Shown here: one piece after another, positions 7,279 through 50,213 of the stretch | How positions within the stretch are numbered: the stretch's first letter is position 1 | Layout: every line of letters begins with the position of its first letter | Source: an uncultured Lysobacteraceae bacterium | Lineage (GTDB): Bacteria > Pseudomonadota > Gammaproteobacteria > Xanthomonadales > Xanthomonadaceae | Direction: 5' to 3' | DNA: 64,000 nt | Assembly: GCA_902825775.1 (NCBI GenBank) | Contig: CADECF010000005.1 | Coordinates: 1-64,000 of the forward strand | The notes under the pieces: model-generated | Databases searched by the model: none | What the model was told of the DNA's origin: nothing | The model's input: only the letters and a program-made list of their open reading frames with translations | Program-made: the position numbers and the translations under genes

Positions 7279-7283
7279 CCTGC

Positions 7284-7381
7284 TTTGTAGAGTGGAGCTT
7301 GCTCCGCTGCCTTTGCCGTTGTTTCTGCGCCGCTGCCTCGCACCAAAAGCAAGAGCAGCGGAGCAAGCCCCGCTCTACAAA
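7284..7381. repeat. Inverted pair of agcagcggagcaagc-type repeats
   Basis: TTGTAGAGTGGAGCTTGCTC (7284-7303) and GAGCAAGCCCCGCTCTACAA (7361-7380) form the outer arms of a roughly 98-bp palindromic unit just after zapE. This is the commonest dispersed repeat in the window. The position fits a transcript-end or mRNA-stabilising role, but that is inference. Confidence 0.8.
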
Positions 7382-7526
7382 GCCGCGTGCCTATCTTCCG
7401 TCAGTGCCCACGCCCCGCCTTGAGACGGCGGCAGCGTACGCGTCCACGCCTCTAGTCTGGCCGCGCGCCGACGCCGTTCGCGTTCGCGCAACCCTTCTCT
7501 TCTGCGCCGGCGGAGCGTGCTCCTTG

Positions 7527-8414
7527 TTGAGCCTTAAACTTACGGCCTGGCTGATGCTGGCGCTCATTCTGCTCGCCGCGATCGAAGCCTGGTGGCTGGT
7601 TCGAAGCGGCCGCGGCTACGCGTGGGGCGAATTCTGGGCGTCGCTGGGCGATGTCGCCGGCCGCATCGTAATCATCGCCGTAGTCAAGACGGGCATCGTG
7701 GGCCTGGTGCTGTACGCGGTGTGGCGCTGGCGGATCGGCGAGATCGCGATGGACCGCTGGTGGCACTGGGCCCTGCTGCTGCTCGGCCTGGACTTCTGCT
7801 ATTACTGGATGCACCGCGCCGAACACCGCATCCGCTGGTTCTGGCTCAATCACTCCGTCCACCACTCCTCGCAGCGGATCACGTTCGCCGCCGCTTACCG
7901 GCTGGGTTGGACCAGCCGCATCGTCGGCACGCCCATCTTCATGGCGCCGCTGGTGCTGATCGGATTTCCGGTTCCGATCGTCCTCGCTACGCTGTCCCTG
8001 AACCTGCTGTACCAGTTCTGGCTGCACACCGAACTGATCGGAAAGCTGCCGCGTCCGATCGAATACCTGTTCAATACGCCGTCGCACCACCGCGCGCACC
8101 ATGCGAGCAACGAGATCTACATCGACCGCAATTACGGCGGCGTGCTGATCGTCTTCGATCGTTGGTTCGGCACCTTCCAGGCTGAAACGATGGAGCATCC
8201 GCCGCGCTACGGGCTGGTGGAGCCCCTCCACACCCACAATCCGTTCCGGCTCGTGGCGCACGCCTGGCGCGGCATGTATCGCGACCTGCGCGCCGCACGC
8301 GGTTGGCGCGAATGCGTATGGGTGGTGGTCGGTCCGCCGGAGTTCAAACCCGCCGGCCATGCAAGCGCCGCAAACTTGAATATCGCTACATCTGGCGTTG
8401 ACGGCGCCGTCTAG
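7527..8414 (+). CDS. Sterol desaturase / fatty acid hydroxylase family protein
   Basis: Membrane di-iron oxidase of the fatty acid hydroxylase superfamily, about 295 residues with four or more hydrophobic segments. The eight-His metal site is visible as HRAEH, HSVHHSS and, downstream, HHRAHH. The substrate could be a lipid or a carotenoid-like molecule and cannot be read from sequence. The start is uncertain: TTG at 7527 has GGAG about 11 bases upstream, while ATG at 7554 is the first ATG and would remove nine residues. It is transcribed toward the riboswitch-nrdA region. Confidence 0.8.
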   Translation: MSLKLTAWLMLALILLAAIEAWWLVRSGRGYAWGEFWASLGDVAGRIVIIAVVKTGIVGLVLYAVWRWRIGEIAMDRWWHWALLLLGLDFCYYWMHRAEHRIRWFWLNHSVHHSSQRITFAAAYRLGWTSRIVGTPIFMAPLVLIGFPVPIVLATLSLNLLYQFWLHTELIGKLPRPIEYLFNTPSHHRAHHASNEIYIDRNYGGVLIVFDRWFGTFQAETMEHPPRYGLVEPLHTHNPFRLVAHAWRGMYRDLRAARGWRECVWVVVGPPEFKPAGHASAANLNIATSGVDGAV

Positions 8415-8431
8415 GCACCGTATGTTGTGGC

Positions 8432-8720
8432 CGTCGGTTCCGACGGCTCGCGCCTTCGGATGAAAAGGGAAGCCGGTTGGAATCCGGCACTGCCCCGCAG
8501 CGGTATGTGGAAACGAAAGCCGTCATTGGCACTGGGATCCAGGATCCCGGGAAGCGACGGCCGGTAGGTGGGTTCGGTTTCTGCTTTTTTGCGGGAGCGG
8601 CTTCAGCCGCGAGCTTTTGTTGTTGCCCTGACCTCAGGCGAAGAGCTCGCGGCTGAAGCCGCTCCCACAAAAGAAAAAGCGAAACCGGTCCCGCGTCCAC
8701 GAGTCCGAAGACCTGCCGAC
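8432..8720 (+). ncRNA. Cobalamin (B12) riboswitch upstream of nrdAB
   Basis: The stretch carries the conserved landmarks of a cobalamin aptamer in the right order: gggaagccggt..aatccgg followed by ctgccccgcagcggta (8467-8505), a ggcactggga segment (8528-8537), gggaagcgacgg (8549-8560), and the terminal B12 box gagtccgaagacctgccgac (8701-8720). A compact hairpin (ccgcgc..gcgcgg, 8722-8743) follows and may belong to the expression platform. About 250 nt separate the box from the nrdA start. The expected effect is lower nrdAB expression when cobalamin is plentiful. The aptamer is unusually long because a dispersed palindrome occupies one variable arm (8591-8668). Confidence 0.9.
8591..8668. repeat. 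Dispersed gggagcggcttcagccgc palindrome inside the riboswitch
   Basis: Arms gggagcggcttcagccgcga (from 8593) and its reverse complement tcgcggctgaagccgctccc (to 8666) surround a short variable centre. The same element occurs at 26896-26981, with degenerate or half copies at about 25928-26012 and 42278-42325. Here it extends a stem formed by cggtttc-gctttt and aaaaagcgaaaccg, that is, a peripheral arm of the cobalamin aptamer. Confidence 0.88.
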
Positions 8721-8969
8721 AGCCGCGCGATGCACACCGCGCGGTACCGGCCGCGGAATCTCCGGGGGGAGATGGCTGGTGACGCAACACCGGCCATTGC
8801 CTTCATCCGAATGCATCGCGGCCGTTGCGACACCGCCCACCCATCCTGAGATCGCCGCACGCCCGAGGGGGCGCGGTCGCGTTGCGGATTCGCGTCCGTA
8901 CGCGATGCGTTCCTTCCGCCGTCCGCGCGGGACAGACGGCATCGGTGCGCCATCGCAGGAGAAACACGC

Positions 8970-11429
8970 ATGAACCCGAACGACAGCGCCGTTGTCGACG
9001 CCACCATCGTCGAAGGCCGCGACCCGCCCTCGAACAACGCCTCTTTTCTGCTCACCCCACCGCCCGCCGCCACCGCGATGAGCGTGACCAAGCGCAACGG
9101 CGGGCGAGAGCCGGTGGACCTCAACAAGATCGTGCGCGCCGTGCAGCGCAGCTGCGAAGGCCTGCACGCGATCGACCCGATGCGCGTGGCCACGCGCACG
9201 ATCTCCGGTTTGTACGACGGCGCCACCACGCGCGAGCTGGACGAGCTGTCGATCCGTACCGCCGCGCTGCTGACCGCCGAAGAACCCGAATACGGCCGCC
9301 TCGGCGCGCGCCTGTTGGCCAACGTCATCGCCAAGGAAGTCGCCGGGCAGGAAATCCATGCGTTCTCGCAATCGGTGGCGCGCGGCCATGAAGTCGGCCT
9401 GATCAACGACCGCTTGCTCGGCTTCGTGCAGGCCAATGCGCGCAAGCTCAACGATGCGCTGGACATGTCGCTGGACCTGCATTTCGATTATTTCGGTTTG
9501 CGTACACTGTACGACCGCTATCTGCTGCGCCACCCGCATACGCGCAAGGCGATCGAGACGCCGCAGCAGTTCTTCCTGCGCATCGCCTGCGCGCTGAGCG
9601 AGGATGTGTCCGAGGCGCTGGCCTTGTACCGGCGCATGGGCAACCTCGACTACCTGCCCAGCTCGCCGACGCTGTTCAACAGCGGCACCACGCACGAACA
9701 GCTGTCCTCGTGCTTCCTGCTGGATTCGCCGCGCGATTCGCTGGAATCGATCTACCAGAAGTACGGCGACATCGCGCAACTGTCGAAATTCAGCGGGGGC
9801 ATCGGCGTGAGCTACACGCGCGTGCGTTCGCGCGGCTCGCTGATCAAGTCCACCAACGGCCATTCCAACGGCATCGTGCCGTGGCTGAAGACGCTGGATT
9901 CGTCAGTGGCCGCGGTCAACCAGGGCGGCAAGCGCAAGGGCGCAGCCTGCGTGTATCTCGAGCCGTGGCACGCGGACGTCGAGGAATTCCTGGAACTGCG
10001 CGACAACACCGGCGACGAAGCGCGGCGTACGCACAACCTCAACCTGGCCAACTGGATCCCCGATCTCTTCATGAAGCGGGTGGAAGCCGACGGCGCCTGG
10101 TCGCTATTCGATCCGCGCGGGGTGCCGGAACTCACCGATCTGTTCGGCGAAAAGTTCGAACAGGCCTACGAACAAGCCGAAAAACAAGGCAAAGCCGTCA
10201 AGACCGTGCAAGCGCGCGAGCTGTACGGCCGGATGATGCGCACCCTGGCGCAAACCGGCAACGGCTGGATGACGTTCAAGGACAAGTGCAACCGCGCCAG
10301 CAACCAGACCGCCAAAGCCGGCAACGTGATCCATCTGTCGAACCTGTGCACGGAAATCCTGGAAGTGACTTCGGCGGAGGAAACCGCGGTCTGCAACCTG
10401 GGTTCGATCAACCTGAGCCGCCATTTCGACATCGATCCTGATAACGGCCGTGGCTATTTCGATTACGACAAGCTAGGCGAGACCGTGCGCCTGGCCGTGC
10501 GCCAGTTGGACCGCGTGATCGACCTGAATTTCTATCCGATCGAATCCGCGCGCCGCGGCAACCTGCGCTGGCGGCCGGTCGGATTGGGCGTGATGGGCCT
10601 GCAGGACGTGTTCTTCCGGCTGCGCCTGGCTTTCGATAGCGAAGATGCGCGCCAGCTGTCGGTCAAGATCGCCGAGACCATTTACTATCATGCGCTGGAA
10701 ACTTCGTGCGAACTCGCCGAGGAGCGCGGCCGCCATCCGTCGTTCGACGACACCCGCGCCGCTGCCGGCGAACTGCAGTTCGAGGCCTGGAGCGTGACGC
10801 CGCAGAACAACGAACGCTGGGATGCGCTGCGCGTCCGCATCCGCAAGCACGGCCTGCGCAACTCGCTGCTGATCGCGATCGCGCCGACCGCGACCATCGC
10901 TTCGATCGCCGGTTGCTACGAATGCGTCGAGCCGCAGGTCAGCAATCTGTTCAAGCGCGAGACGCTGTCCGGCGATTTCCTGCAGGTCAACCGTTATCTG
11001 GTCGTCGAACTGAAGAAGCTGGGTTTATGGACGCCGGAAATCCGCGACGCGATCAAGCAGGCCGAAGGCTCAGTGCAAGGCATCGCCCAGATCCCGGAAA
11101 CCTTGCGCGCGATCTACCGCACCGCCTGGGAAGTGCCGATGCGATCGCTGATCGACATGGCCGCCGACCGCGGCGCCTATATCGACCAGTCCGCTTCGCT
11201 CAACTTGTTCATGGAAAGCCCGAACATCGGTGCGATGTCGTCGATGTACATGTATGCGTGGAAGAAAGGCATCAAAACCACGTACTACCTGCGCTCGCGG
11301 CCGGCGACGCGGATCGCCAAGACCACGCTCGGCAATGCGCCCGCGCAAGTCTTGCCGCCGGAAATCGCGCCGGCGGACGCCATCGCGTGCTCGCTGGAGA
11401 ATCCGGAGAGCTGCGAGGCCTGCCAGTAA
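8970..11429 (+). CDS. nrdA: Ribonucleoside-diphosphate reductase, class Ia, alpha subunit
   Basis: An 819-residue catalytic subunit that reduces ribonucleoside diphosphates to deoxyribonucleotides. An ATP-cone (allosteric activity domain) starts at MSVTKRNGGREPVDL, about residues 31-120. The active-site residues are present: SSCFLLD (first redox Cys), NLCTEI (radical Cys with Asn and Glu), CNLGSIN (second redox Cys), and a C-terminal shuttle CEAC in the last five residues. It is followed by nrdB after a repeat-filled 155-bp gap. The upstream B12 riboswitch implies control by cobalamin, probably because a B12-dependent enzyme exists elsewhere in the genome. Confidence 0.96.
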   Translation: MNPNDSAVVDATIVEGRDPPSNNASFLLTPPPAATAMSVTKRNGGREPVDLNKIVRAVQRSCEGLHAIDPMRVATRTISGLYDGATTRELDELSIRTAALLTAEEPEYGRLGARLLANVIAKEVAGQEIHAFSQSVARGHEVGLINDRLLGFVQANARKLNDALDMSLDLHFDYFGLRTLYDRYLLRHPHTRKAIETPQQFFLRIACALSEDVSEALALYRRMGNLDYLPSSPTLFNSGTTHEQLSSCFLLDSPRDSLESIYQKYGDIAQLSKFSGGIGVSYTRVRSRGSLIKSTNGHSNGIVPWLKTLDSSVAAVNQGGKRKGAACVYLEPWHADVEEFLELRDNTGDEARRTHNLNLANWIPDLFMKRVEADGAWSLFDPRGVPELTDLFGEKFEQAYEQAEKQGKAVKTVQARELYGRMMRTLAQTGNGWMTFKDKCNRASNQTAKAGNVIHLSNLCTEILEVTSAEETAVCNLGSINLSRHFDIDPDNGRGYFDYDKLGETVRLAVRQLDRVIDLNFYPIESARRGNLRWRPVGLGVMGLQDVFFRLRLAFDSEDARQLSVKIAETIYYHALETSCELAEERGRHPSFDDTRAAAGELQFEAWSVTPQNNERWDALRVRIRKHGLRNSLLIAIAPTATIASIAGCYECVEPQVSNLFKRETLSGDFLQVNRYLVVELKKLGLWTPEIRDAIKQAEGSVQGIAQIPETLRAIYRTAWEVPMRSLIDMAADRGAYIDQSASLNLFMESPNIGAMSSMYMYAWKKGIKTTYYLRSRPATRIAKTTLGNAPAQVLPPEIAPADAIACSLENPESCEACQ

Positions 11430-39343: not shown

Positions 39344-39496
39344 ACGTTTCTCCTCGCTCGTTGAAAGGCGCCCGAACGGTTCCGCCGGGCTCCAGTAAGA
39401 CGGGTTCTTTCTCCAGACCTGGCCATGGCTGCAGCGCCTGGCCGTCGTCTGCGCGCGATCGCATAGAATCCGCCGTTGCGGGACCGGGGACGAGGC

Positions 39497-42247
39497 ATGG
39501 GCGCAGATCGCTGGCAACGGATCAGGGAACTGTTCGATCGCTTCGCGGATATGCCGCGCGAGCAATGGCGGCCGCAGTTGGCCGAAGCCTGCGGCGGCGA
39601 TCCGGCGCTTGAGCGTGAAGTCCTGGCGCTGCTGGAGGCGGATGCGGATACCGCTTTCAGGCCCCGCGAAATGCTGGCCCGGCAATTGAACGAATTCGAC
39701 GGCCAGGCCGAAAACCAAGCCGAGCAAAGCCTGGCCGGCACGCGACTGGGGCCGTTCCGCCTGGTGCGGCCGATCGGCCGCGGCGGCATGGGCGCGGTCT
39801 GGCTGGCCGACCGCGCCGACGGCGAGTACGCGCAACAGGTCGCGATCAAACTGGTCCGCAGCACCTGGGACAGCGCCGAGCTGCATGCGCGCTTCCGCAG
39901 CGAGCGACAAATGCTGGCAGATCTGCATCATCAGAACATCGCCAGTCTTGTCGACGGCGGCGTCACCGACGACGGCAAGCCCTGGCTGGCGCTGGAATAC
40001 GTCGACGGCATCGACCTATGCCTTTATGCCGAACAGCAACGGCTCGATTTGCGGCAGCGCGTCGACCTGTTCCTGACCGCCTGCGCCGCCGTGTCGCATG
40101 CGCATGCCCACTTGATCGTGCATCGCGACTTGAAGCCTTCCAACATCCTGGTGCGCCGCGACGGCATGGTGAAGCTGCTGGATTTCGGCATCGCCAAACT
40201 GATCGACGCGTCGGACGCGCAGACGACGGTGCTGCGCGCGTTCACGCCCGAATACGCCGCGCCCGAACAGATCCGCGGCGATGCGGTCACCACCGCCATC
40301 GACATCTACACGCTGGGCTTGCTGCTGTACGAGCTGCTGACCGGCCGCCGGCCGTACGCGCTCGACCAGACGACGCCATCGGCCTACGAACGCGCCGTGC
40401 TGGAACAGACGCCTACCCGCCCCAGCCAGGCGGTCACGCATAACGACGGGAACGGAACGGCCGCCGCCCGCGCCGCGCAGCGCCGCCTGACGCCGCACAG
40501 CCTGAAGCGGGAACTGCGCGGCGATCTCGATGCGATCGTGTTGAAGGCACTGCGCAAGGAGCCCGAGCAGCGCTACGCCTCGGTGCAGGACATGGCCGCC
40601 GATCTTCGCGCCTGGCAGCAGCGCCGCCCGGTCGCGGCACGGCGCGGCGGCTGGCGCTACGACGCGGCGCGCTTCCTGCAACGGCACGCCGTGGCCGCAG
40701 GCATGGCCGTGGTCGCCGTCCTGGCGTTATGCGGGGGCTTGGGCGTGGCGCTGTGGCAAGCCCAGCAGGCGCGCTTGCAGCGCGATGTGGCGGTGGCCGA
40801 GAGCGCCAAATCGCGCGCCGTACTCGAATTCATGAGTGGACTGTTCGAGTTGGCCGACCCGGACAAGGCGCGCGGCAACCAAGTCACGGCGCGCGAGCTG
40901 CTGACGCGCGGCGCCGAGCGGATCCGCGGACAGTTTTCGCAGCAGCCGGCGGTGCGCGCCGAGCTGCTCACGGCGATCGCCGGCGCGCAGGAAGGCCTCG
41001 GGCTTTATGCCGAAGCGCTGCCGCTGGCGGAGGAAGCGTCGCGACTGACGCGCGATCTGCGCAGGCCTGCGTTGCACCGCGCAGCCGAAATCGATCGCGT
41101 GCAGATCCTGCATCGGCTCGGCCGCTATCGGGAAGCGCTGACGCTGCTCGAGCCGCTGCGTTCCGGCCCCGCGCCGGCGGATCGCGATGCGGAGGCCGCG
41201 CTGGCCGAAGTGGAATACCGGCGCGCCTTGACGCTGCAGGCCTTGAACCGTTTCGACGAGGCCGACCGGGCCTATGCGCGCGCCTATCGCGAGCAACTGC
41301 GTTTGTACGGCGCGGCGGACCGGCGCGCGCAGGATACGGCCATGCGTTACGTCACGCTGCTGATGCTGCGCGACCACCCCGCGCAAGCGGCGCGGCTGGC
41401 GCGCGAAACGCTGACCGCGGTGCGCGGCAGCGCCGGCAAGACCGATCCGCATCTGGCGCAAGCCATCGACACGCTGGCGATGGTGTTGTCCAACACGGGC
41501 CCCTTGTCGGAGGCCGAGACGCTGCGGCGCGAAGAGATCGCGATCCGGAGAGCCTCGCAAGGTGCGGAGCACCCGGACACCGTCGGCGCGTTCAACGACC
41601 TGGGCTCGGTGCAGTACGCGCAACGCCGGTTCGCGGAAGCGGCGGAAAGTTTTCGCCAGGTGCTGGCGCACCGGCGCACGAAATTCGGCAATGCGCATCC
41701 CTCGGTCGCCCTGGTAGCCAACAATCTGGCCAACTGCGAATTGGAATTGAACCATCCCGGCACCGCCCTACCGCTGGCGCGGGAAGCGTTGCGGATCCGC
41801 ATGGCGCTGTACGGGCCCAAGCATCACGGTACGGCTTCTTCGTTGCTGACCCTGGGCGCGATCGAACTGGACATGGGCGAGTACGGCGCCGGCGAACGTC
41901 ATCTGCGGCAAGCGCTGGACGCTTACGACGCCACGCTGGGGCCGAATAACGCCTTCGCACTGCCTGCGCTGCGCGAACTCGCTCGTGCCGAACTCCTTTC
42001 CGGGCGCGCGGATCCCGCATGCGCCACCGCCGAGCGCGCGTACGCGCTCGCGCAGGCGGGCGACGACGATCCGGCCAAGCGCGCGTACGTCAGCGCGCTG
42101 CGTGCGGCGTGTTGGGCCTGGCGCGGGCAATCGCAGGCGAAGGCCACGCTCGCCGTCGATCTGGAACTGTTGCGGCGGGAATGGGGGAACGACGATCGCC
42201 GTACGCGCAAGATCGATGCGTTGAACCGCGCTGTCGCGTCCCGATAA
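39497..42247 (+). CDS. Transmembrane Ser/Thr protein kinase with C-terminal TPRs
   Basis: A 916-residue Hanks-type kinase. The kinase domain (about 80-380) has GRGGMGAVW, the ATP-site Lys in VAIKLV, HRDLKPSNILV, LLDFGIAKL and YAAPEQIRG. A single membrane segment (about 398-420, AAGMAVVAVLALCGG) leads to an extracytoplasmic half of about 490 residues made of tetratricopeptide units (for example HPDTVGAFNDLGSVQYAQRRFAEA). A short N-terminal part (WQRIRELFDRFADMP..R) is typical of kinases that pair with ECF sigma factors, but none is seen here. It is divergent from paralogue 2 of the small Cys proteins. Confidence 0.88.
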   Translation: MGADRWQRIRELFDRFADMPREQWRPQLAEACGGDPALEREVLALLEADADTAFRPREMLARQLNEFDGQAENQAEQSLAGTRLGPFRLVRPIGRGGMGAVWLADRADGEYAQQVAIKLVRSTWDSAELHARFRSERQMLADLHHQNIASLVDGGVTDDGKPWLALEYVDGIDLCLYAEQQRLDLRQRVDLFLTACAAVSHAHAHLIVHRDLKPSNILVRRDGMVKLLDFGIAKLIDASDAQTTVLRAFTPEYAAPEQIRGDAVTTAIDIYTLGLLLYELLTGRRPYALDQTTPSAYERAVLEQTPTRPSQAVTHNDGNGTAAARAAQRRLTPHSLKRELRGDLDAIVLKALRKEPEQRYASVQDMAADLRAWQQRRPVAARRGGWRYDAARFLQRHAVAAGMAVVAVLALCGGLGVALWQAQQARLQRDVAVAESAKSRAVLEFMSGLFELADPDKARGNQVTARELLTRGAERIRGQFSQQPAVRAELLTAIAGAQEGLGLYAEALPLAEEASRLTRDLRRPALHRAAEIDRVQILHRLGRYREALTLLEPLRSGPAPADRDAEAALAEVEYRRALTLQALNRFDEADRAYARAYREQLRLYGAADRRAQDTAMRYVTLLMLRDHPAQAARLARETLTAVRGSAGKTDPHLAQAIDTLAMVLSNTGPLSEAETLRREEIAIRRASQGAEHPDTVGAFNDLGSVQYAQRRFAEAAESFRQVLAHRRTKFGNAHPSVALVANNLANCELELNHPGTALPLAREALRIRMALYGPKHHGTASSLLTLGAIELDMGEYGAGERHLRQALDAYDATLGPNNAFALPALRELARAELLSGRADPACATAERAYALAQAGDDDPAKRAYVSALRAACWAWRGQSQAKATLAVDLELLRREWGNDDRRTRKIDALNRAVASR

Positions 42248-42272
42248 GCGACGGATAAGATTTGTGGAGGCA

Positions 42273-42414
42273 CTGTTGTAGGAGCGGCTCTTGTGGGAGC
42301 GGCTCTTGTGGGAGCGGCTTCAGCCGCGATCTTTTGCTCTTTGCCTGTCATCCCGAGCGCAGCGAGGGATCTGCTTTGTCGACGAAGCAGATCCCTCGCT
42401 GCGCTCGGGATGAC
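42273..42414. repeat. Two palindromic repeats between the kinase gene and the amyloid operon
   Basis: Bases 42277-42330 contain three tandem gtaggagcggct / gtgggagcggct starts ending in a half copy of the riboswitch-type element. Bases 42347-42414 are a nearly perfect 68-bp palindrome: gtcatcccgagcgcagcgag and ctcgctgcgctcgggatgac at the ends and gatctgctt..aagcagatc inside. The second can act as a terminator-like barrier between the convergent genes. Confidence 0.88.
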
Positions 42415-42433
42415 AAGCAGAAAGAAAGCGCGG

Positions 42434-43756
42434 TCAGAACCCGCGCGAAGCGCGGAACGACATCACGAAATTCGGCGCGTCCGGCGTGAGGCCGTTGGCC
42501 ATCTGCGCGTTCAGCGACCAACCCGACGGCAGCAGATAGCTGGCGCCGACATTGAATGTCGTCGTCGTCGTGGAGCTGCCCGCGACGCGGCTGTAATCGT
42601 CGCCGCCATCGGGTTTGATATGCGTCGCGCCCGCCGCCGACGCCGCGACGCTGAAACTGACCGCGGCGCGGTCGTTCAACGCGATCGCCAGGCCGCCGCT
42701 GAGCTGGTACGGATTGCCCAGCTTGACCTTGGCCGGCTGCACCTGACCGACCACCGGCGAGATGTCGTCGAAGCTGCCGGGCAGGTTGTAGGTGTAACCC
42801 AGGTTGCCGAACAGGATCACCGGGTCGTAAGTGCGCAACGCGGACACGTTGGCGGTCACGCTCCACAAGCCGCTGCCGGTGGGCAGATCTTCGGGCACGT
42901 TGAGGTTGTTGTTGTTGTCGTCCGGCGCGATGAGCTTGAGGCCGAAGGGATCGCGTCCGGTAGGCGAACGCACGCGCAGGCTGGCCACCAGATCGGGCCA
43001 ACGCGCCGATTCCTTCACCAGCTGGTAATAGCCGGCGACGCTGACATCGCCCAGGCCGCTGGAGCTCTTGGTCACCTCGCTGATCGAAGTGGATGCGCCG
43101 CCCGCGCCGCCGCTGACGAATCGGCTGGTGCGATAGACGTAAGGAATGTTCGCTTCCAGATTGATGCGGTCGGTGATGCCGTAACGGCCGGTGATGTCGG
43201 TGGTCAGCACCGAGGCCTTGGTCTGGTCGAGGTTGATCGTGCCCAGGAAGATCGCATCCAGCGCCAGGAAGCCGCTCAAAGCCAGCTGGCGGCGGTCGTA
43301 ATAGCTGAAGTTGGTACCGACATCGACCGTGAACCGGCGCTCGAACAGCGGCGCATGCTCCTGCACCACCAGCGCCTTCTCCTGCTCGCGGCGTTCTGTG
43401 TCGTCGACTTTCTGGTCCTGGCCGATCTGCTGCGCGACCGGCGCGCCGGCGGGCGCAGGTTGCTGCGGTTGTTGCGGATCCTGCGCCTGCAGCTCCTGTG
43501 GCGGTTGCTGCGCCACTGCCGTCTGCGGATCGTCCACGCCGCGGCCGCGCATGCCCAGTTCGAGGAATTCCACTTGCGCGCGCAACCGCTCGATCTCGAG
43601 TTGCTGCTGGGAAACGCGCGACTCCAACCGGTCGAGCTGCTGGCGCACGTCGCTGGCGACTGTCGTCTGCCCATCGACGCCGGCAGACTGCTGTGCGTGA
43701 GCCGGGAGGCTGAGCGCGAAGGCGATGGCGAAAGCGAGGGTCGTTTGCCGCAGCAT
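42434..43756 (-). CDS. fapF: FapF-like outer membrane amyloid secretion porin
   Basis: A 440-residue protein with a signal peptide (cleavage after AHA near 21), an N-terminal coiled coil (about 34-75: VRQQLDRLESRVSQQQLEIE and on), a Gln/Pro-rich linker (about 80-115), and a long C-terminal beta-barrel region ending in Phe. In Pseudomonas, FapF is a trimeric pore with just this coiled-coil-linker-barrel order and exports the amyloid subunits. It is the last gene of the operon, as fapF is. The final 'RASRGF' fits an outer-membrane insertion signal. Confidence 0.75.
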   Translation of the reverse strand: MLRQTTLAFAIAFALSLPAHAQQSAGVDGQTTVASDVRQQLDRLESRVSQQQLEIERLRAQVEFLELGMRGRGVDDPQTAVAQQPPQELQAQDPQQPQQPAPAGAPVAQQIGQDQKVDDTERREQEKALVVQEHAPLFERRFTVDVGTNFSYYDRRQLALSGFLALDAIFLGTINLDQTKASVLTTDITGRYGITDRINLEANIPYVYRTSRFVSGGAGGASTSISEVTKSSSGLGDVSVAGYYQLVKESARWPDLVASLRVRSPTGRDPFGLKLIAPDDNNNNLNVPEDLPTGSGLWSVTANVSALRTYDPVILFGNLGYTYNLPGSFDDISPVVGQVQPAKVKLGNPYQLSGGLAIALNDRAAVSFSVAASAAGATHIKPDGGDDYSRVAGSSTTTTTFNVGASYLLPSGWSLNAQMANGLTPDAPNFVMSFRASRGF

Positions 43757-43796
43757 GGCTGTCCCTGATTGGAATGTCCGGAGAAAAGAAGGCCAT

Positions 43797-43823
43797 GACG
43801 CCGCGCGTCCGGCGGCGTCTTTT
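43797..43823. terminator. Stem-loop between the fapE-like and fapF-like genes
   Basis: gacgccgc-gcgtccg-gcggcgtc followed on the plus strand by TTTT. For the minus-strand operon it is an intercistronic hairpin that could lower or stabilise downstream message. Confidence 0.55.
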
Positions 43824-43841
43824 GCATCCACTCGACAAGAA

Positions 43842-44612
43842 TTAACGCGGCAGCTGGCTCAATCCGGCCAATGCCTGGTACACGCCCATCTGCTGCTGCT
43901 GCAGCGCGGGCATGGCGGCAGTCTGCATCTGCAGCTGCATGGTGTTGCTGCCGAGCTGGTCCTGGCCGGCGACGCGTGCGGCCTGCATGATGCCGCCGTT
44001 GGCGCCGGAGACCACACTCTGGCTGAGCATGCCGCTGGGCGCGGAGAGGCCGAGCCTGGCGCCGCCGCCTTCGAACGACACGCTGGCGATCATGCTGCCG
44101 TTCGTGCTGCTGCTCGAGGTCTGGCCGTTGAAGTTGCCGCCCGCGGTCGAGTGCGGCGTGAAGCTGATCGCGGTGAGGTTGGCGAACTTGTTGCCGTCGC
44201 CGGCGATCTGCACGACCTGGCCGACGCCGTTCACCGAGACCTGGTCGCCGCCGACCGCCGAGCCGTTGCTCAGGCCGGAGCCGGCGCCGCCGCTGGCCTG
44301 CGCATCGCTGCGCGTGTCGACCTGCACGCTGAAGCTGCCATTGCTGTTGCGCTGGATCTGCAGCGTGCCCGCGGCGCTCAGATTGCCCTCGGCGGTGCGC
44401 CAGTTGGACAGCAACTCGATACGCAACCCGACCAGCATGTCGGCGCCATAGAACTTGCCGCTGATGCGGCTGAGGGTGTCCTCATCGACCACTTCCACCC
44501 TGACAGGTTTGATCGCCGGGGCGACGGAAGGCTGGGCGGCCTCGGCTTGCGCCGAGGCCGCCATCCCTACGAGGGTCCCGAACAAAGCGAGGGGGAGAGT
44601 TCGTGTGTTCAT
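43842..44612 (-). CDS. Secreted protein in FapE position of the amyloid operon
   Basis: A 256-residue exported protein (signal peptide cleavage after AQA near 23). The N-terminal part has ordered sequence (VRVEVVDEDTLSRISGKFYG); the centre is very rich in Gly, Ser, Asn and Gln (GNFNGQTSSSSTNGSMIAS); the C-terminus has a Gln/Met-rich stretch. Length and place match FapE of Pseudomonas (about 250 residues, between fapD and fapF), a minor fibre or export component. I could not confirm homology by motif, so the symbol is left empty. Confidence 0.65.
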   Translation of the reverse strand: MNTRTLPLALFGTLVGMAASAQAEAAQPSVAPAIKPVRVEVVDEDTLSRISGKFYGADMLVGLRIELLSNWRTAEGNLSAAGTLQIQRNSNGSFSVQVDTRSDAQASGGAGSGLSNGSAVGGDQVSVNGVGQVVQIAGDGNKFANLTAISFTPHSTAGGNFNGQTSSSSTNGSMIASVSFEGGGARLGLSAPSGMLSQSVVSGANGGIMQAARVAGQDQLGSNTMQLQMQTAAMPALQQQQMGVYQALAGLSQLPR

Positions 44613-44623
44613 GGCGCACCTCG

Positions 44624-45337
44624 TTAAAGATAATCCGCGCGCATCAGCCCGAATTCGAGCACTGGCGGTGGGGTTGTCGCGCGGTCCAGCACATCCATGC
44701 GGCGCTTGAGCGCCTGGGATCCACGGTCACGCATCAGGAATGAATCGGCCAGCATGGGCTTGTCGCCGACCACGGCGAGCACCACCCCATTCCAGCCTTT
44801 CACGAAATCTTTTTCGTACACCACGCGGTGGCCCAGCGCCGGATCGGCGATGAACACGCGTCCTGCCGAAGCGCCCTTCACCAGCACGAAGTGCCGGTAG
44901 CCGCGCACTTCCATCAACGCGATGACCGGCATTTGCAGCTGGTACAACGCGTCGGGCTTGATCCGGTAGCCATGGGCGCGCATGCCGATGCTTTCGACAT
45001 AACGTTTCATGTCGAGCATCGAGAAGCCGTTCTTGACGACTTCCTTGGGATCGGCGCCGACCAGCATCTTCTCGATCAGCCCGGTCTCGGTCACTTGCAT
45101 GCCGTAGCCGTAGAGCAGCAGCGTCGCCAGCGCGGCCGAGCCGCAGCTGAAGTCGTAATGCTGCTGCATCATTTCGCGGTAGCGCAGGTCGCGGAAGGTC
45201 TTGACGGGCTTGATGACCGGCGCGCTGCCGAAGCGGGTGGCATCGATCGCCGTCTGCGCCATGCCCAGTCCCGGCAGGCCGATCAAACCGGCCAGCAGCA
45301 GGATCTGCGGTATCGCGAATCGCAACGGCAAACGCAT
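44624..45337 (-). CDS. fapD: FapD-like C39-family peptidase
   Basis: A 237-residue exported protein of the C39 papain-like fold. The catalytic Cys is in QQHYDFSCGSAALATLL, the His in GYRHFVLVKG, and the Asp in IADPALGH. It has a signal sequence and no ABC-transporter domain, as in FapD, the peptidase required for Fap export. AAGGAG lies 9 bases before ATG 45337; a GTG at 45343 would be only 3 bases from it, so 45337 was chosen. It lies 11 bp from the next gene, so the pair is co-translated. Confidence 0.85.
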   Translation of the reverse strand: MRLPLRFAIPQILLLAGLIGLPGLGMAQTAIDATRFGSAPVIKPVKTFRDLRYREMMQQHYDFSCGSAALATLLLYGYGMQVTETGLIEKMLVGADPKEVVKNGFSMLDMKRYVESIGMRAHGYRIKPDALYQLQMPVIALMEVRGYRHFVLVKGASAGRVFIADPALGHRVVYEKDFVKGWNGVVLAVVGDKPMLADSFLMRDRGSQALKRRMDVLDRATTPPPVLEFGLMRADYL

Positions 45338-45360
45338 GGTCACTCGCTCCTTGTCTGAAA

Positions 45361-45386
45361 CCGGGCCGGCGTTATCGCCGGCCCGG
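45361..45386. promoter_or_regulatory. Intercistronic hairpin after the second amyloid gene
   Basis: ccgggccggcg-ttat-cgccggcccgg is a perfect 11-bp stem in the gap between the second subunit gene and fapD. It could stabilise subunit mRNA while reducing read-through into the export genes. Confidence 0.65.
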
Positions 45387-45419
45387 CATTGCTTCGCACT
45401 ATCGTTACAACGCTATCGA

Positions 45420-46229
45420 TCAGTCCCCACCGCAGCCCGAGCAGGGCGGCGGCGGTGCGGCGCACAGCTCGCACGCGGCCACGGCGATCGCCAGGCCGTT
45501 GTGCTGGGCGTTGCCCACGCCGGCGGCGATGTTGACGCCGATGTTGCCGACGGCACCGGACAGCGCGTTGCCGCTCAGGAACGCGGTGTTGTCCAGATCG
45601 CACTCGGCGGCCAGGGTGTTCCAGATCGTGAACTGCTCGCTGTCGGCCGTGGCCTTGGCGATCGTGCCGGAGCTGTTGACCGAAGCGGCCAGCGCGTTGG
45701 TCTGCGCATTGCCCACGCCGGCGGCGACGTTCAAGCCGATGTTGCCCGAAGCGCTGGCCAGCACGTTGTCGGAAGCCGACGCGGTGTAGAACAGCTGGTT
45801 GTCGGCATAGCCGTCGTCGGTGCCCAGGTTGATGCCGGTTTCCTGGCTGCTGAACACCATGGCGTGCGCGAACACGTCGTCGCCGTCGACCGACGACAGC
45901 GCGGTGTCGTTGGCCTGGGCGTTGCCCACGCCGGCGGCCACGTTGGCGCCGATGTTGCCCGAAGCGCTACGCAGCGCGTTGCCGCTCAGGTAGGCATGGT
46001 TGTCGCCATCGCCCATCGAGGCGTTGGCGGCCGTCGTCTGGTCCTGATCGACCACGGCGCCGGATTCGCTGGCCACGTCGATTTCGCCGTAAGCGAACAC
46101 GTCGCCGATGACCCAGATGCTGTTGACGATGTCGGTGGAGTTGTAGATGACGGCGTCGTCGCCTTCGGCGAACGCCGGTGCGGATACCGCGAGCATCGCG
46201 GCGGCCAGCAGGCTCAAATGAAGTTTCAT
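45420..46229 (-). CDS. fapC: FapC-like amyloid subunit 2
   Basis: A 269-residue exported protein (signal cleavage after AFA near 21). Three copies of the motif GNIG-x-N-[VI]-AAGVGNAQ-x-N lie at about 91-108, 162-179 and 228-246, separated by linkers of about 50 residues. This is the repeat of Pseudomonas FapC. The last residues hold CELC and a second C-S-G-C after a Pro run; FapC also ends in a Cys pair. Residues from about 90 to 256 are identical to the neighbouring paralogue because the DNA is identical. The N-terminal 90 residues differ moderately. Confidence 0.85.
   Translation of the reverse strand: MKLHLSLLAAAMLAVSAPAFAEGDDAVIYNSTDIVNSIWVIGDVFAYGEIDVASESGAVVDQDQTTAANASMGDGDNHAYLSGNALRSASGNIGANVAAGVGNAQANDTALSSVDGDDVFAHAMVFSSQETGINLGTDDGYADNQLFYTASASDNVLASASGNIGLNVAAGVGNAQTNALAASVNSSGTIAKATADSEQFTIWNTLAAECDLDNTAFLSGNALSGAVGNIGVNIAAGVGNAQHNGLAIAVAACELCAAPPPPCSGCGGD
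45466..45959. repeat. 494-bp direct repeat, copy in amyloid gene 2
   Basis: Identical by eye to 46311-46804. It covers the C-terminal two thirds of the two subunit genes, from the third base after the first motif copy to the CELC codons. The ends are sharp: at 45960 the copies diverge at once. Confidence 0.92.
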
Positions 46230-46260
46230 GTCGATCCCCTAAAGATATGGTTGGAGAAGG

Positions 46261-46284
46261 CGGGAGCGGCCCCTGCCGCTCCCG
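46261..46284. promoter_or_regulatory. Intercistronic hairpin between the two amyloid genes
   Basis: cgggagcggc-ccct-gccgctcccg is a perfect 10-bp stem in the 71-bp gap between the fapC-like genes. Confidence 0.6.
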
Positions 46285-46300
46285 TGCTTCCGTGGGTAGG

Positions 46301-47074
46301 TCAGTCGCAGAGCTCGCACGCGGCCACGGCGATCGCCAGGCCGTTGTGCTGGGCGTTGCCCACGCCGGCGGCGATGTTGACGCCGATGTTGCCGACGGCA
46401 CCGGACAGCGCGTTGCCGCTCAGGAACGCGGTGTTGTCCAGATCGCACTCGGCGGCCAGGGTGTTCCAGATCGTGAACTGCTCGCTGTCGGCCGTGGCCT
46501 TGGCGATCGTGCCGGAGCTGTTGACCGAAGCGGCCAGCGCGTTGGTCTGCGCATTGCCCACGCCGGCGGCGACGTTCAAGCCGATGTTGCCCGAAGCGCT
46601 GGCCAGCACGTTGTCGGAAGCCGACGCGGTGTAGAACAGCTGGTTGTCGGCATAGCCGTCGTCGGTGCCCAGGTTGATGCCGGTTTCCTGGCTGCTGAAC
46701 ACCATGGCGTGCGCGAACACGTCGTCGCCGTCGACCGACGACAGCGCGGTGTCGTTGGCCTGGGCGTTGCCCACGCCGGCGGCCACGTTGGCGCCGATGT
46801 TGCCGGAAGCATCGCTCAGCGCGCTGCCATCGAGGTAAGCGCTGTTGTCGCCGTCGCCGAGCGACCAGTTGGCGTCGGTGTACTGGTCCTGATCGACCAC
46901 GGCGCCGGATTCGCTGCTGACGGAGATGTAGCCGCCGGCATAGATGTCGCCGATCACCCAGATGCTGTTCTGGACGTCGGTGTAGTTGAAGATGTAAGCG
47001 TCGTCGCCTTCGGCGAACGCGGGCGCAGCAACCGCCAACAGGGCGGCGGCGAGCAGGGTGCGGGTCAGTTTCAT
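46301..47074 (-). CDS. fapC: FapC-like amyloid subunit 1
   Basis: A 257-residue exported protein (signal cleavage after AFA near 21) with acidic EGDDAYIFNYTD start, then three GNIG-x-N-x-AAGVGNAQ-x-N repeats at about 91-108, 162-179 and 228-246. The single Cys at 210 and the terminal C-E-L-C pair (253, 256) match the other copy. Composition is Ala, Gly, Asn, Asp and Ser rich with few charges in the repeats, as in functional amyloids. It follows the FapB-like gene by 43 bp. GGAGAG precedes the ATG. Confidence 0.85.
   Translation of the reverse strand: MKLTRTLLAAALLAVAAPAFAEGDDAYIFNYTDVQNSIWVIGDIYAGGYISVSSESGAVVDQDQYTDANWSLGDGDNSAYLDGSALSDASGNIGANVAAGVGNAQANDTALSSVDGDDVFAHAMVFSSQETGINLGTDDGYADNQLFYTASASDNVLASASGNIGLNVAAGVGNAQTNALAASVNSSGTIAKATADSEQFTIWNTLAAECDLDNTAFLSGNALSGAVGNIGVNIAAGVGNAQHNGLAIAVAACELCD
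46311..46804. repeat. 494-bp direct repeat, copy in amyloid gene 1
   Basis: Partner of 45466-45959 at a constant offset of 845 bp. The 5' part of the two genes is clearly diverged while this part is not, which argues for gene conversion rather than a simple recent duplication. Confidence 0.92.
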
Positions 47075-47117
47075 GGTTCTCTCCTGGTGGTGTGGTTACG
47101 GCTCTTGGGTACAGCGG

Positions 47118-47711
47118 TTATGGCGTGCTACCTGGAAGCTGAAGCACGATGGCGTTGGTCGAGAGGTTCCCGACTCCCGCGGTCTGATTGACCTGTACCA
47201 CCCCCTGGCTGCCGCGGAACGCATCGGTGTCGATGAGCGCGCGGCGGTCGGGCGTTGCGGTTGCAGTCCCCTCAGTACTGGTTCCGGCACCGGCGGTCTC
47301 GGCCAGCGCGGCGTCGTCCGCACGCGCTACCAAGGAGAAGCCGCCGTTGCCGATGGCGATGCTGTTGAGTTGCAGGTTGGAAGAACCTGCGACCTGATTG
47401 AGCGACAGCGCGCCGCTGCTGCCGTTGAATGCGGTGCCGTCGATCGTGGCGCGCGCCGCGGCCGCGCGCTGCGCGGGCGTGGCGGTTTGCAGACTGTGCG
47501 TATCGGCCATGGCGACGCCGTCTTGCGAATACGCGAAGGCCGCCAGGTTGGCCTGCGCATTGCCCGTGCCCGCCGCCTGATTGACCGCGATGCGGCCCTG
47601 GCTGCCGGCGCCGGCGTGATCGCCGATGAAGGCTTGATCCTGGCTCTGCGCATGCGCCGTCGATGCCAGGCCTGCGGCCGCGACGAACACGAGTACGGAC
47701 AAGCGCTTCAT
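47118..47711 (-). CDS. fapB: FapB-like minor amyloid subunit
   Basis: A 197-residue exported protein (signal cleavage after AHA near 21). It has three imperfect relatives of the subunit motif: GSQGRIAVNQAAGTGNAQAN, SSGALSLNQVAGSSNLQLN and SQGVVQVNQTAGVGNLSTN. No Cys. In Pseudomonas the smaller repeat protein just before FapC is FapB, the fibre nucleator, and length and order agree. The ATG overlaps the stop of the preceding gene (ATGA), so synthesis is coupled. Confidence 0.78.
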   Translation of the reverse strand: MKRLSVLVFVAAAGLASTAHAQSQDQAFIGDHAGAGSQGRIAVNQAAGTGNAQANLAAFAYSQDGVAMADTHSLQTATPAQRAAAARATIDGTAFNGSSGALSLNQVAGSSNLQLNSIAIGNGGFSLVARADDAALAETAGAGTSTEGTATATPDRRALIDTDAFRGSQGVVQVNQTAGVGNLSTNAIVLQLPGSTP

Positions 47712-48220
47712 GGCTTGCCCCCCGCTGCGCCGATGGCTGGCTGCAGGGTGGACAGCGCGTTGTTGATGGTGCCGCCCAAGCCTTCGGTAGCGCCACGGAT
47801 CGATCCGCCCACCGACGCGCCCATGCCCAGCGGCGCGGCGCCCGCCGCCGACGTCCCCATCATGCCCATGCCGGCGGCGCCGGTTTGCGCGTCCGGCGCC
47901 AGCATGCCGCGCGTGGCCTCCATCACGATGCCGCCCGAACCGGTCGCCGAACCGAGTTCGCCGTCGCCGAGCGCGTTACCCAGCGCTTTATCGAGCGTGC
48001 TGTGGAAGACCTGCGCCGGGAACGTCGTCGCCCGCGCATGCACCGGATTGTCTTCGAGCGGCACGCCGCGGTACGCGATGCGCGGATTCACGGTACGCGT
48101 GATCGCGAAGCCGGGATCTTCCTGCGGCGCGGCCTGCTGCGCGAACGCGGCCGGCGACAGCGCCGCGCCTAGCAGCGCCAGGCAGGCACGCGTCCGAAGA
48201 TTGTGGGCAGGTAGGCGCAT
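47708..48220 (-). CDS. First gene of amyloid operon, FapA position
   Basis: A 170-residue exported protein (signal cleavage after AFA near 27). The mature chain starts QQAAPQEDPGFAITRTVNPR with a well ordered region, then becomes Gly/Met/Ala-rich (AAGMGMMGTSAAGAAPLGMG). Length and position match FapA, thought to be a periplasmic chaperone-like factor for the subunits. I see no shared motif strong enough to prove homology. It overlaps the FapB-like gene by 4 bp and lies about 50 bp after a sigma-54 promoter. Confidence 0.62.
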   Translation of the reverse strand: MRLPAHNLRTRACLALLGAALSPAAFAQQAAPQEDPGFAITRTVNPRIAYRGVPLEDNPVHARATTFPAQVFHSTLDKALGNALGDGELGSATGSGGIVMEATRGMLAPDAQTGAAGMGMMGTSAAGAAPLGMGASVGGSIRGATEGLGGTINNALSTLQPAIGAAGGKP

Positions 48221-48272
48221 CGTTTCCCCTCATCACATGACCGCCGCAGCGTGCGGTGGCGGGGAGAGCTAA

Positions 48273-48288
48273 GCGATATGCGTGCCAC
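48273..48288 (-). promoter_or_regulatory. Candidate sigma-54 promoter of the Fap-like operon
   Basis: On the minus strand the sequence reads GTGGCACG-CATA-TCGC, against the consensus TGGCACG-N4-TTGC: the -24 element is perfect with correct spacing, and the -12 element has one change. Transcription would start about 40 bp before the first gene of the operon. The remaining gap (48289-48588) contains no gene. Confidence 0.75.
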
Positions 48289-48588
48289 CGGCCCAAGGCA
48301 CTGAATGGAAAGGGTTTTTGCCAACGATGTGAGCGCTGCGTTAAAACCGTCATCGAAAAACGTTGCGCGGATGAAACACGCCTACGCCCGTCAGTGAGCC
48401 GATACCTGCGCCGCGTTGCGACCAGGCTGTAGCGCGCGCCTTATTAGGCGCCGGCAGCGGCTATCCGGCACCGTTTCAGTCTTGAACATCGAAGAATTTC
48501 GCGTCGTCTTGTCCGGTTTCGGAGTAGCGATGCGTTACCTATCTTGCGAGCGGGGGTCGTTGTTTTCGTGCACCCGCTCGTCGCGCGA

Positions 48589-49026
48589 TCACTCTTCGCG
48601 AGTGCGGTTCAACACCAGCCAGTACAGGCCCACCTGCTTGACCGCGGCGACGAACTGCTCGAAATCGACCGGCTTCTGGATGTAGCTGTTGGCGCCCAGC
48701 GCATAGCTGGCTTCGACGTCGAACGGTTCGGCGCTGGTGGTCAGCACCACCACCGGCAGCGTCTTGGTGACCAGGTTGTCGCGGATCGCCTGCAGTACTT
48801 CGCGGCCGTCGACCTTGGGCAGGTTGAGGTCCAGCAATACGATCGACGGCAGCTGCAGCGGATCGCGGTCGGCGTAGCGACCGCGCGCGAACAGGTAATC
48901 CAGCGCTGCCGCGCCGTCGCTGACGACCATCAGGCGGTGGTCGATGCCGGCTTCGGCGAAGGCGATGCGGGTCAGCTCGACGTCGTCGAGGTTGTCTTCG
49001 ATCAGCAGGATGTCTTTCTCGTTCAC
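48589..49026 (-). CDS. CheY-like single-domain response regulator
   Basis: A 145-residue receiver-only protein (Rcp1-like). Acidic pocket IEDNLDDVELT, the phospho-acceptor Asp in VLLDLNLPKVDG, Thr/Ser in VLTTSAEP and Lys in IQKPVDF are present, with the longer loop typical of regulators that pair with phytochrome-type kinases. It overlaps the kinase gene by 4 bp (ATGA). There is no output domain, so it acts by protein contact. Confidence 0.88.
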   Translation of the reverse strand: MNEKDILLIEDNLDDVELTRIAFAEAGIDHRLMVVSDGAAALDYLFARGRYADRDPLQLPSIVLLDLNLPKVDGREVLQAIRDNLVTKTLPVVVLTTSAEPFDVEASYALGANSYIQKPVDFEQFVAAVKQVGLYWLVLNRTREE

Positions 49027-50213
49027 TCGGCGTCCTCGTCGATAGGGCGGTCGTTGTCCGTAACGGGAAACGATAGATGGAATACGCTGCCGACGCCGGG
49101 CTCGGATTCGGCCCAGACCAAGCCGCCGTGCCGCTGCACGATGCGCTGGGCGATCGCCAGGCCCAGTCCGCTGCCGCCGCCTTCGGCTTGGCCGTGCAGA
49201 CGCTGGAACGGTTCGAACAGCTTATCGGCGTAAGCCATATCGAAGCCGCAACCCTGGTCGCGCACCGACAGCTGCACGCCCTGCGCCTGCATCGTGCCGC
49301 GCACTTCGATCTGCACGCGCTCGCGTTGCGCGGAGAATTTCCAGGCATTGCCCAGCAGCTGCGTGAACAAGGTTTTGAGCATGCGTTCGTCGCCGTACCC
49401 GTGCAGGTCGGGTTGCACGTCGATGCGCGCCTGCCGTTCGGGATCGGCGTCCTGCAGCTCGGCGCCGACCCATTCGGCCAACAGGCTCAGATCGACCGAC
49501 TGCGGACGCAGGTCCGCGCTGATCGCGCGCGACAGTTCGAGCAGGCCGTCGATCAGCGCCGACATCCGGCCGGCGTTGTCGCGGACGCGTTGCAGATAGT
49601 CGCGGCCGGTTTCGTCTAGCGCCTGGGCGGCATGGCGTTCGAGCTGCGTGGCGAAACCGTCGATGGCGCGCAGCGGCCCGCGCAGATCGTGCGAGACGCC
49701 GTACGCGAACTGCCGCAGTTGCTGATTGGCCTCGCGCACTTGCGCAATGCGCTCGGCGACCTGCCGCTCTAGGGCGCGGTTGAGCTCCTGCAACGCCTGC
49801 TCGGCCTGCATCTGCGCGCTGATGTCGCGCACCTGCGCGATCATGTAGATCCGCGCGCCGGCATCGTCGTGCATCATCGCCACGTTCAGATGCGCCCACA
49901 GCACGCTGCCGTCGCGGCGCAGGTAGCGCTTGGGCGCATCGAGCACCGGGATGCTGCCGTCGACCAGGCTGCGCATATAGCCGCGGGAGAGCTCGATGTC
50001 TTCGGGATGGGTGAATTCGAGCACGTGATGCCCGATCAGCTCGCTGGCCGGGTAACCGAACATCTTCTCGAACGCGGGATTGACCTCGCACCAGTGGCCG
50101 CCCATATCGACGATGGCCATGCCGATGCCGGACGAAGCCATCGCCAGCCGGAATAGCTGGCTGTCGTCCCGGTCGGGATCGTGCAGCGGCGCGCGGGCGG
50201 CGGGCGTCGACAT
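49023..50213 (-). CDS. Soluble PAS-domain sensor histidine kinase
   Basis: A 396-residue cytosolic kinase. A PAS domain with PAC (about 20-135: FRLAMASSGIGMAIVDMGG, FGYPASELIG, then ARIYMIAQVRDIS) leads through a coiled coil (about 136-170) to a phytochrome-type H-box YGVSHDLRGPLRAI and the ATPase boxes LGNAWKFS, DQGCGFDM and GSGLGLAI. No membrane segments. The partner is the CheY-like protein encoded next with a 4-bp overlap. The PAS ligand is unknown. Confidence 0.87.
   Translation of the reverse strand: MSTPAARAPLHDPDRDDSQLFRLAMASSGIGMAIVDMGGHWCEVNPAFEKMFGYPASELIGHHVLEFTHPEDIELSRGYMRSLVDGSIPVLDAPKRYLRRDGSVLWAHLNVAMMHDDAGARIYMIAQVRDISAQMQAEQALQELNRALERQVAERIAQVREANQQLRQFAYGVSHDLRGPLRAIDGFATQLERHAAQALDETGRDYLQRVRDNAGRMSALIDGLLELSRAISADLRPQSVDLSLLAEWVGAELQDADPERQARIDVQPDLHGYGDERMLKTLFTQLLGNAWKFSAQRERVQIEVRGTMQAQGVQLSVRDQGCGFDMAYADKLFEPFQRLHGQAEGGGSGLGLAIAQRIVQRHGGLVWAESEPGVGSVFHLSFPVTDNDRPIDEDAE

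Follow-up and report, generated by a model that had tools for sequence, protein, structure and literature searches.

Fap is one of the two well-studied bacterial amyloid systems, with FapD as its essential protease, and works much like curli (Csg), where a repeat-containing amyloid is likewise secreted via an outer-membrane pore. In Pseudomonas the system is encoded by fapABCDEF, and its fibers serve as a biofilm glue. Its gene number reportedly varies unusually little (PMC12822426); two fapB/C genes were reported for 94.5% of 1172 clusters (PMC12392863), so that some clusters depart from two, and more than two have been counted before. Here, we describe a Fap-type operon with two fapC genes in the first 64,000 nucleotides (nt) (positions 1-64,000, referred to below as the window) of contig CADECF010000005.1, part of a 26-contig draft genome of an uncultured Lysobacteraceae bacterium (GCA_902825775.1).

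Several described systems resemble Fap. Dueholm 2013 (PMC3792158) reported Fap in Xanthomonadales (Rhodanobacter and Stenotrophomonas), and Rouse 2018 (PMC6173800) described homologues of fapD and fapF that occur together at one locus in five further phyla. The Nap island of Neisseria gonorrhoeae also combines a C39 peptidase with a FapF-related channel and double-glycine peptides, but is set apart by its description, which gives small cationic autolysis peptides and no amyloid repeats (PMC11798529). With these five phyla and the Nap island, the wider FapD/FapF class is already partly in print. In Acinetobacter, the Fil "putative pilus system" (NCBIfam FilB and FilC) likewise comprises a C39 peptidase and a barrel.

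A Fap operon with an additional fapC gene

Seven adjacent minus-strand genes (42434-48220) follow the fapABCDEF plan with one extra fapC, in the order A-B-C-C-D-E-F (aa, amino acids):

47708..48220, minus strand: fapA-like, 170 aa, secreted, low complexity; assigned by position and iterative profile
47118..47711, minus strand: fapB, 197 aa, three weaker repeats; NF058557 (FapB), E value 3.5e-31
46301..47074, minus strand: fapC1, 257 aa, three repeats, CxxC-D end; predicted major fiber subunit; NF058558 (FapC), E value 6.2e-29
45420..46229, minus strand: fapC2, 269 aa, three repeats, CxxC and then a Pro-rich CxxC tail; predicted second fiber subunit
44624..45343, minus strand: fapD, C39 peptidase, 239 aa from GTG or 237 aa from an in-frame ATG two codons later; NF058616, E value 1.8e-63
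43842..44612, minus strand: fapE, 256 aa; NF058559, E value 4.3e-13 over residues 32-250
42434..43756, minus strand: fapF, 440 aa from ATG, predicted outer-membrane barrel with an N-terminal coiled-coil-like region; NF058560, E value 4.8e-104

This layout had been proposed from the DNA letters alone, and all seven genes are present with the sizes given in that original prediction (239 aa from GTG for the C39 gene). The hidden Markov model search that it called for matched NCBIfam Fap models to six of the seven products, the exception being the protein at the fapA position, and sequence matches to PDB entries were obtained for FapF (5o65; E value 2.2e-78) and FapC (E value 1.2e-16), the former indicating a barrel by sequence. 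As anticipated, FapC1 and FapC2 each carry three copies of the repeat GNIG-x-N-x-AAGVGNAQ-x-N, FapB carries three weaker copies, and the peptidase in the FapD place consists of a C39 domain alone (PF03412; E value 3.1e-22), i.e., without a transporter. Moreover, the modeled FapC fold agrees with the solved FapC fibril, and the three same-genus loci that were fetched all have the identical gene order with two fapC genes. The two outcomes named beforehand as speaking against a Fap operon, an unrelated repeat family and a different secretion system, were rejected on the model scores, the PDB matches and the FapC fold: the subunits resemble FapC, while FapD and FapF fit the C39 protein and the barrel protein better than FilB and FilC do. 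All matches fall below the curated NCBIfam equivalog cutoffs (bits/cutoff: FapB, 108.3/190; FapC, 102 and 94/195; FapD, 214/330; FapE, 49/250; FapF, 349/700). Since none of the genomes in searches of 149 and 369 passed the FapF cutoff, however, these thresholds also exclude other Fap operons. We conclude that this is a real and probably working Fap operon.

The locus agrees with the Pseudomonas operon in which genes it has and how they are ordered, in the three repeats of FapB and FapC, in the C-terminal CxxC of FapC, in a lone C39 FapD, in FapE and in the FapF barrel; it differs in its two fapC genes with unlike tails, short FapC proteins (257 and 269 aa), low identity, a hairpin past each fapC and a FapA that the libraries do not recognize. 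The latter protein had no Pfam match and no informative NCBIfam match, but an iterative profile found relatives at the fapA position in 33/34 loci of the family, 79/80 named loci and 2/12 further loci of the class. Accepted Fap operons often lack FapA. Of the 46 Fap loci that were fetched, 45 contain a FapE homologue. The first and fifth genes, originally regarded as very different and new, are thus divergent but, judging from these profiles, are a probable FapA and a FapE rather than new genes. By analogy, FapA would be a periplasmic chaperone of the subunits and FapB a minor subunit or nucleator.

The suggestion that Fap was undescribed in this family did not hold, given the report by Dueholm 2013 and the presence of Fap-type FapF in 34 of 149 sampled family genomes; a first description is therefore ruled out. 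In total, the FapF model matched 54 of the 149 genomes, 34 of them at 322 to 389 bits (Fap) and 30 at 125 to 162 bits (a second type, discussed below), with 11 genomes having both and one having a weak 20-bit match alone. All 34 Fap-type loci were fetched; one is a contig fragment and 33 are complete. The operon plan of the window recurs in Fap operons of Xanthomonadales and Burkholderiales. Among the 80 named loci, 72 have one fapB and one fapC, while seven, all from Lysobacter, Luteimonas or Lysobacterales, have an extra fapC; five of these seven are also in the family set. As the named and family sets overlap (for example, L107/L036, L108/L060, L109/L067, L111/L068, L112/L066, L113/L069 and L115/L064), counts over both are partly redundant.

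A candidate FapD cleavage site in FapE

Rouse 2017 (PMC5557850) reported that the FapD cysteine is required but left its target open, and its substrate is called undetermined both there and in PMC6173800; a 2025 review gives FapE and FapF as the presumed targets of processing by FapD (PMC12822426). The active site is intact in the window FapD and across the Fap sequences used (Gln and Cys in 53/53, His and Asp in 54/54), and a FapD signal peptide was recognized by eye. In FapE, we found a leader-like motif:

44454..44474, minus strand: L47-S-R-I-S-G52-K53 of FapE, candidate FapD cleavage site

A profile alignment of 125 FapE sequences (45 from the 46 fetched Fap loci and 80 from named loci, with partly shared genomes and 74 distinct leader windows) showed this [LM]-x4-G-[KR] site with the glycine in 125/125 and the following lysine or arginine in 125/125; G52 is also invariant among 46 FapE proteins. 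The 74 distinct leaders have L or M at position -7 (74), V, L or I at -12 (71), G at -2 (74) and K or R at -1 (74), with a hydrophobic residue or alanine at -4 in just 45 and glutamine in 29. This spacing is what we take to be that of double-glycine leaders, minus the second glycine. In the structure model of FapE, residues 44-50 form a helix and a beta domain begins at residue 58; G52 lies in the low-confidence hinge that joins them (residues 51-55).

A related system bears on this site. The window genome contains a second FapF-type gene, for a FapF-like barrel (locus L034 [G000:C20], 5600-9700), in a cluster that also encodes a C39 peptidase (FapD model, E value 2.2e-42; FilB, E value 4.3e-39), a Gly-rich secreted protein, and two small secreted proteins, P2 (133 aa) and P4 (169 aa), for which the libraries gave no noteworthy match. 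We fetched 13 of the 30 second-type loci of the family and eight from a search of the class (L034, L038, L039, L070-L079 and L099-L106). FapD- and FapF-type genes, as well as the complete FapD active site, are present in 21/21, and none of the 13 family loci yielded a FapA, FapB, FapC or FapE match at 1e-5. P4 carries an RGG motif in 21/21 loci and P2 in 14/20, and the RGG of P4 aligns with the FapE site (hhalign probability of 90%, E value 1.5e-6, 48 columns), compared with 0.1 to 0.3% for reversed or unrelated profiles. P4 and P2 match each other at 97% in a profile comparison. While iterative searches also produced 143 matches that seemed to tie P2 to FapB, FapC and FapE, profile-profile comparison gave just 4% for FapC and 15% for FapE, and we rejected these matches as profile drift. 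On these alignments, we claim homology between P4 and the N-terminal part of FapE and between P4 and P2, and no further. Like Fap, then, the 21 loci have FapD and FapF homologues and a FapE-like protein with a leader site; unlike Fap, they have RGG instead of RG[KR], encode a Gly-rich protein, and form their own clade, separated from Fap with support of 1.0 in both the FapD and the FapF tree. The P4 profile matched 14 of 398 genomes across the phylum. Upstream of the cluster, the opposite strand encodes a winged-helix protein that resembles ToxR/CadC and also has TPR-like matches (L034:1611-3974), a possible regulator.

By comparison with this sister system, FapD most likely cuts FapE after the leader-like L-x4-G-[KR]. 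Alternatively, FapD might cut FapF, in the linker preceding the barrel, or FapE elsewhere, with G-[KR] forming a turn in the structure or acting as a signal for targeting to FapF. This would agree with the observation in PMC5557850 that the FapF linker is possibly processed and that GG and GA motifs occur there and in FapE; moreover, FapE has lysine or arginine where a double-glycine leader has its second glycine, and P2 does not retain RGG throughout. However, the FapE site is the one that aligns with the RGG of P4, with the control profiles far below; it sits in the modeled hinge; and the N terminus missing from the mass spectrometry data was that of FapE, whose first ~70 residues gave no peptides (PMC5557850). 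We therefore consider this alternative possible but the less likely of the two. The invariant glycine and its true double-glycine counterpart in the sister system make the question of the FapD substrate testable at a single residue.

The two fapC copies and their tails

The window copies of fapC share an identical run, the longest common substring of the two genes, which the original prediction had not noted:

46311..46804, minus strand: identical stretch in fapC1, 494 bases
45466..45959, minus strand: the same 494 bases in fapC2

In three sister genomes, the longest exact run shared by the copies is 97, 55 and 74 bases. At the nucleotide level, the repeat cores of fapC1 and fapC2 are identical (489/489 bases), whereas the signal parts are 71% and the N-terminal parts 76% identical. 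Since the cores are 92 to 94% identical to orthologues of the nearest relative and yet indistinguishable within the window, homogenization seems to act on the cores of each genome and to spare the ends, which stay distinct; an exception is sister genome G099, the fapC copies of which are also alike in the N-terminal part (89%). Recent gene conversion between the window copies is likely, although an assembly collapse in the draft is a less probable source of the identity. As a general rule, conversion fits the genus of the window but not the Lysobacter clade, where the cores cluster by copy and not by genome (support of 0.94 and 0.99), and we rejected it as such.

Among the 33 complete family operons, 21 have one fapC, nine have two and three have three. 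FapC1 ends in CxxC-D, whereas in FapC2 the CxxC is followed by a Pro-rich tail with two extra cysteines. This difference recurs: in multicopy operons, a Pro/Cys-rich tail beyond the CxxC is found on the last copy in 10/12 cases and on 0/15 earlier copies. The two exceptions are G096, without Cys, and G066, where the third copy (L068) contains unread bases and was excluded from the alignments and from the hairpin count below. In the other clade, the 17 long single-copy fapC genes have Cys-less ends. The conserved CxxC of FapC probably sits beyond the fiber core and would stabilize the fiber (PMC6173800), and the added cysteines of a FapC2-type tail would fit cross-linking or anchoring.

An alternative view, which we regard as unlikely, is that the two fapC genes do the same work, with no division of labor, and that the second copy arose by a recent tandem duplication that is neutral or is in part an artifact of assembly. 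The 494-base identity exceeds short-read length, the sister genomes share at most 97 bases, and the genome is a draft, all of which leaves room for this view. Against it stand the diverged signal and N-terminal parts, the two copies in 3/3 same-genus loci and multiple copies in 12/33 complete family operons, the confinement of the tail to last copies, and the clustering by copy in the Lysobacter clade. Our literature search found no publication describing duplicated fapC. With two fapC genes whose tails differ in a conserved way, the operon lends itself to testing whether amyloid fibers can be mixed from two subunits. These differentiated copies and the proposed FapD site are the useful parts of this locus.

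Candidate expression signals

Each fapC gene is followed by a GC-rich hairpin, and a promoter-like element precedes fapA:

46261..46284, minus strand: GC-rich hairpin in the fapC1-fapC2 gap, folding z score -2.1
45361..45386, minus strand: GC-rich hairpin in the fapC2-fapD gap, folding z score -4.8
48272..48287, minus strand: sigma-54-like match TGGCACG-N4-TCGCT, one mismatch, 67 nt upstream of the fapA start

A perfect stem of at least 8 pairs within 70 nt past the gene was found for 24 of 30 fapC copies, compared with 0.32 of 30 in shuffled sequences, and folding z scores were -2 or lower past 23/30. Past the other genes of the same loci, such stems were rare (fapA, 0/16; fapB, 0/15; fapD, 1/16; fapE, 1/16; fapF, 3/16), although this control is imperfect in that some of its 70 nt are coding.

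The promoter scan used what we take to be the sigma-54 consensus. With up to one mismatch, a site was present upstream of fapA in 24/33 loci versus 4/660 shuffles, 22 of them 39 to 87 nt and two 18 nt from the chosen fapA start; with up to two mismatches, the numbers were 29/33 and 44/660. The window genome encodes a sigma-54 factor. A literature search for a fap operon linked to RpoN returned none.

Proposed mechanism

Considering what can be read from sequence or models (gene set, repeats, FapC fold, conserved active site, FapE site, tails, hairpins and promoter match), we infer with good confidence a functional Fap system that makes extracellular amyloid fibers for biofilm formation or attachment. 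Sigma-54 would drive the operon, with the hairpins raising fapC message over that of the downstream machinery genes. All seven products would reach the periplasm, where FapA would keep the subunits soluble and FapD, as a periplasmic C39 protease, would license secretion by cutting FapE past L-x4-G-[KR]. FapB, both FapC forms and FapE would then exit through a FapF trimer. FapB would nucleate the FapC fiber, in which FapC1 and FapC2, having a common fiber core, could co-assemble, and the FapC2 tail would place cysteines on the fiber surface for cross-links or anchoring.

On balance, we lean toward a broader interpretation as well. FapE would have a leader of the double-glycine type and be what FapD truly cuts, and Fap would be one branch of a wider class of secretion machines, in each of which a periplasmic C39 peptidase works with a coiled-coil barrel of the FapF type and a gate protein that bears a leader. 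The cluster at L034 would represent a second, undescribed branch, in which two small secreted proteins have true RGG leaders and a Gly-rich protein is also encoded. In this branch of Fap, the roles of the duplicated fapC genes would be split, the last copy bearing the cross-linking or anchoring Pro/Cys tail. That the intact operon instead makes another secreted adhesin or a Fil-like pilus is highly improbable, as the FilB and FilC matches of FapD and FapF are weak, the Fap models score far higher (213.9 versus 111.3 bits for FapD; 348.5 versus 43.1 bits for FapF), and the FapC repeats and fold agree with the solved fibril.

Flanking genes and additional loci

Two further elements adjoin the operon:

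48589..50213, minus strand: genes for a histidine kinase and a stand-alone response regulator, immediately before fapA
42346..42415, strand not assigned: long palindrome past fapF, a possible terminator or repetitive extragenic palindromic (REP)-like element

The kinase/response regulator pair, adjacent in 3/3 same-genus loci, may control the fap operon. Repeated short REP-like units (~42260-42330) lie beside the palindrome, and a plus-strand gene for a serine/threonine kinase-like protein with TPR-like repeats (39476-42247), also a neighbor in the three same-genus loci, converges on fapF; palindrome and repeats may end both converging transcripts.

Finally, two variants of operon layout were observed elsewhere. 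Genome G409 has two Fap-type FapF genes (L090 and L098), each beside a FapE-like gene, with a 730-aa FapB/C-like frame at the stretch edge of one locus, and another fap locus (L092:3262-6048) has a fapC-like frame ahead of the fapB-like frame.

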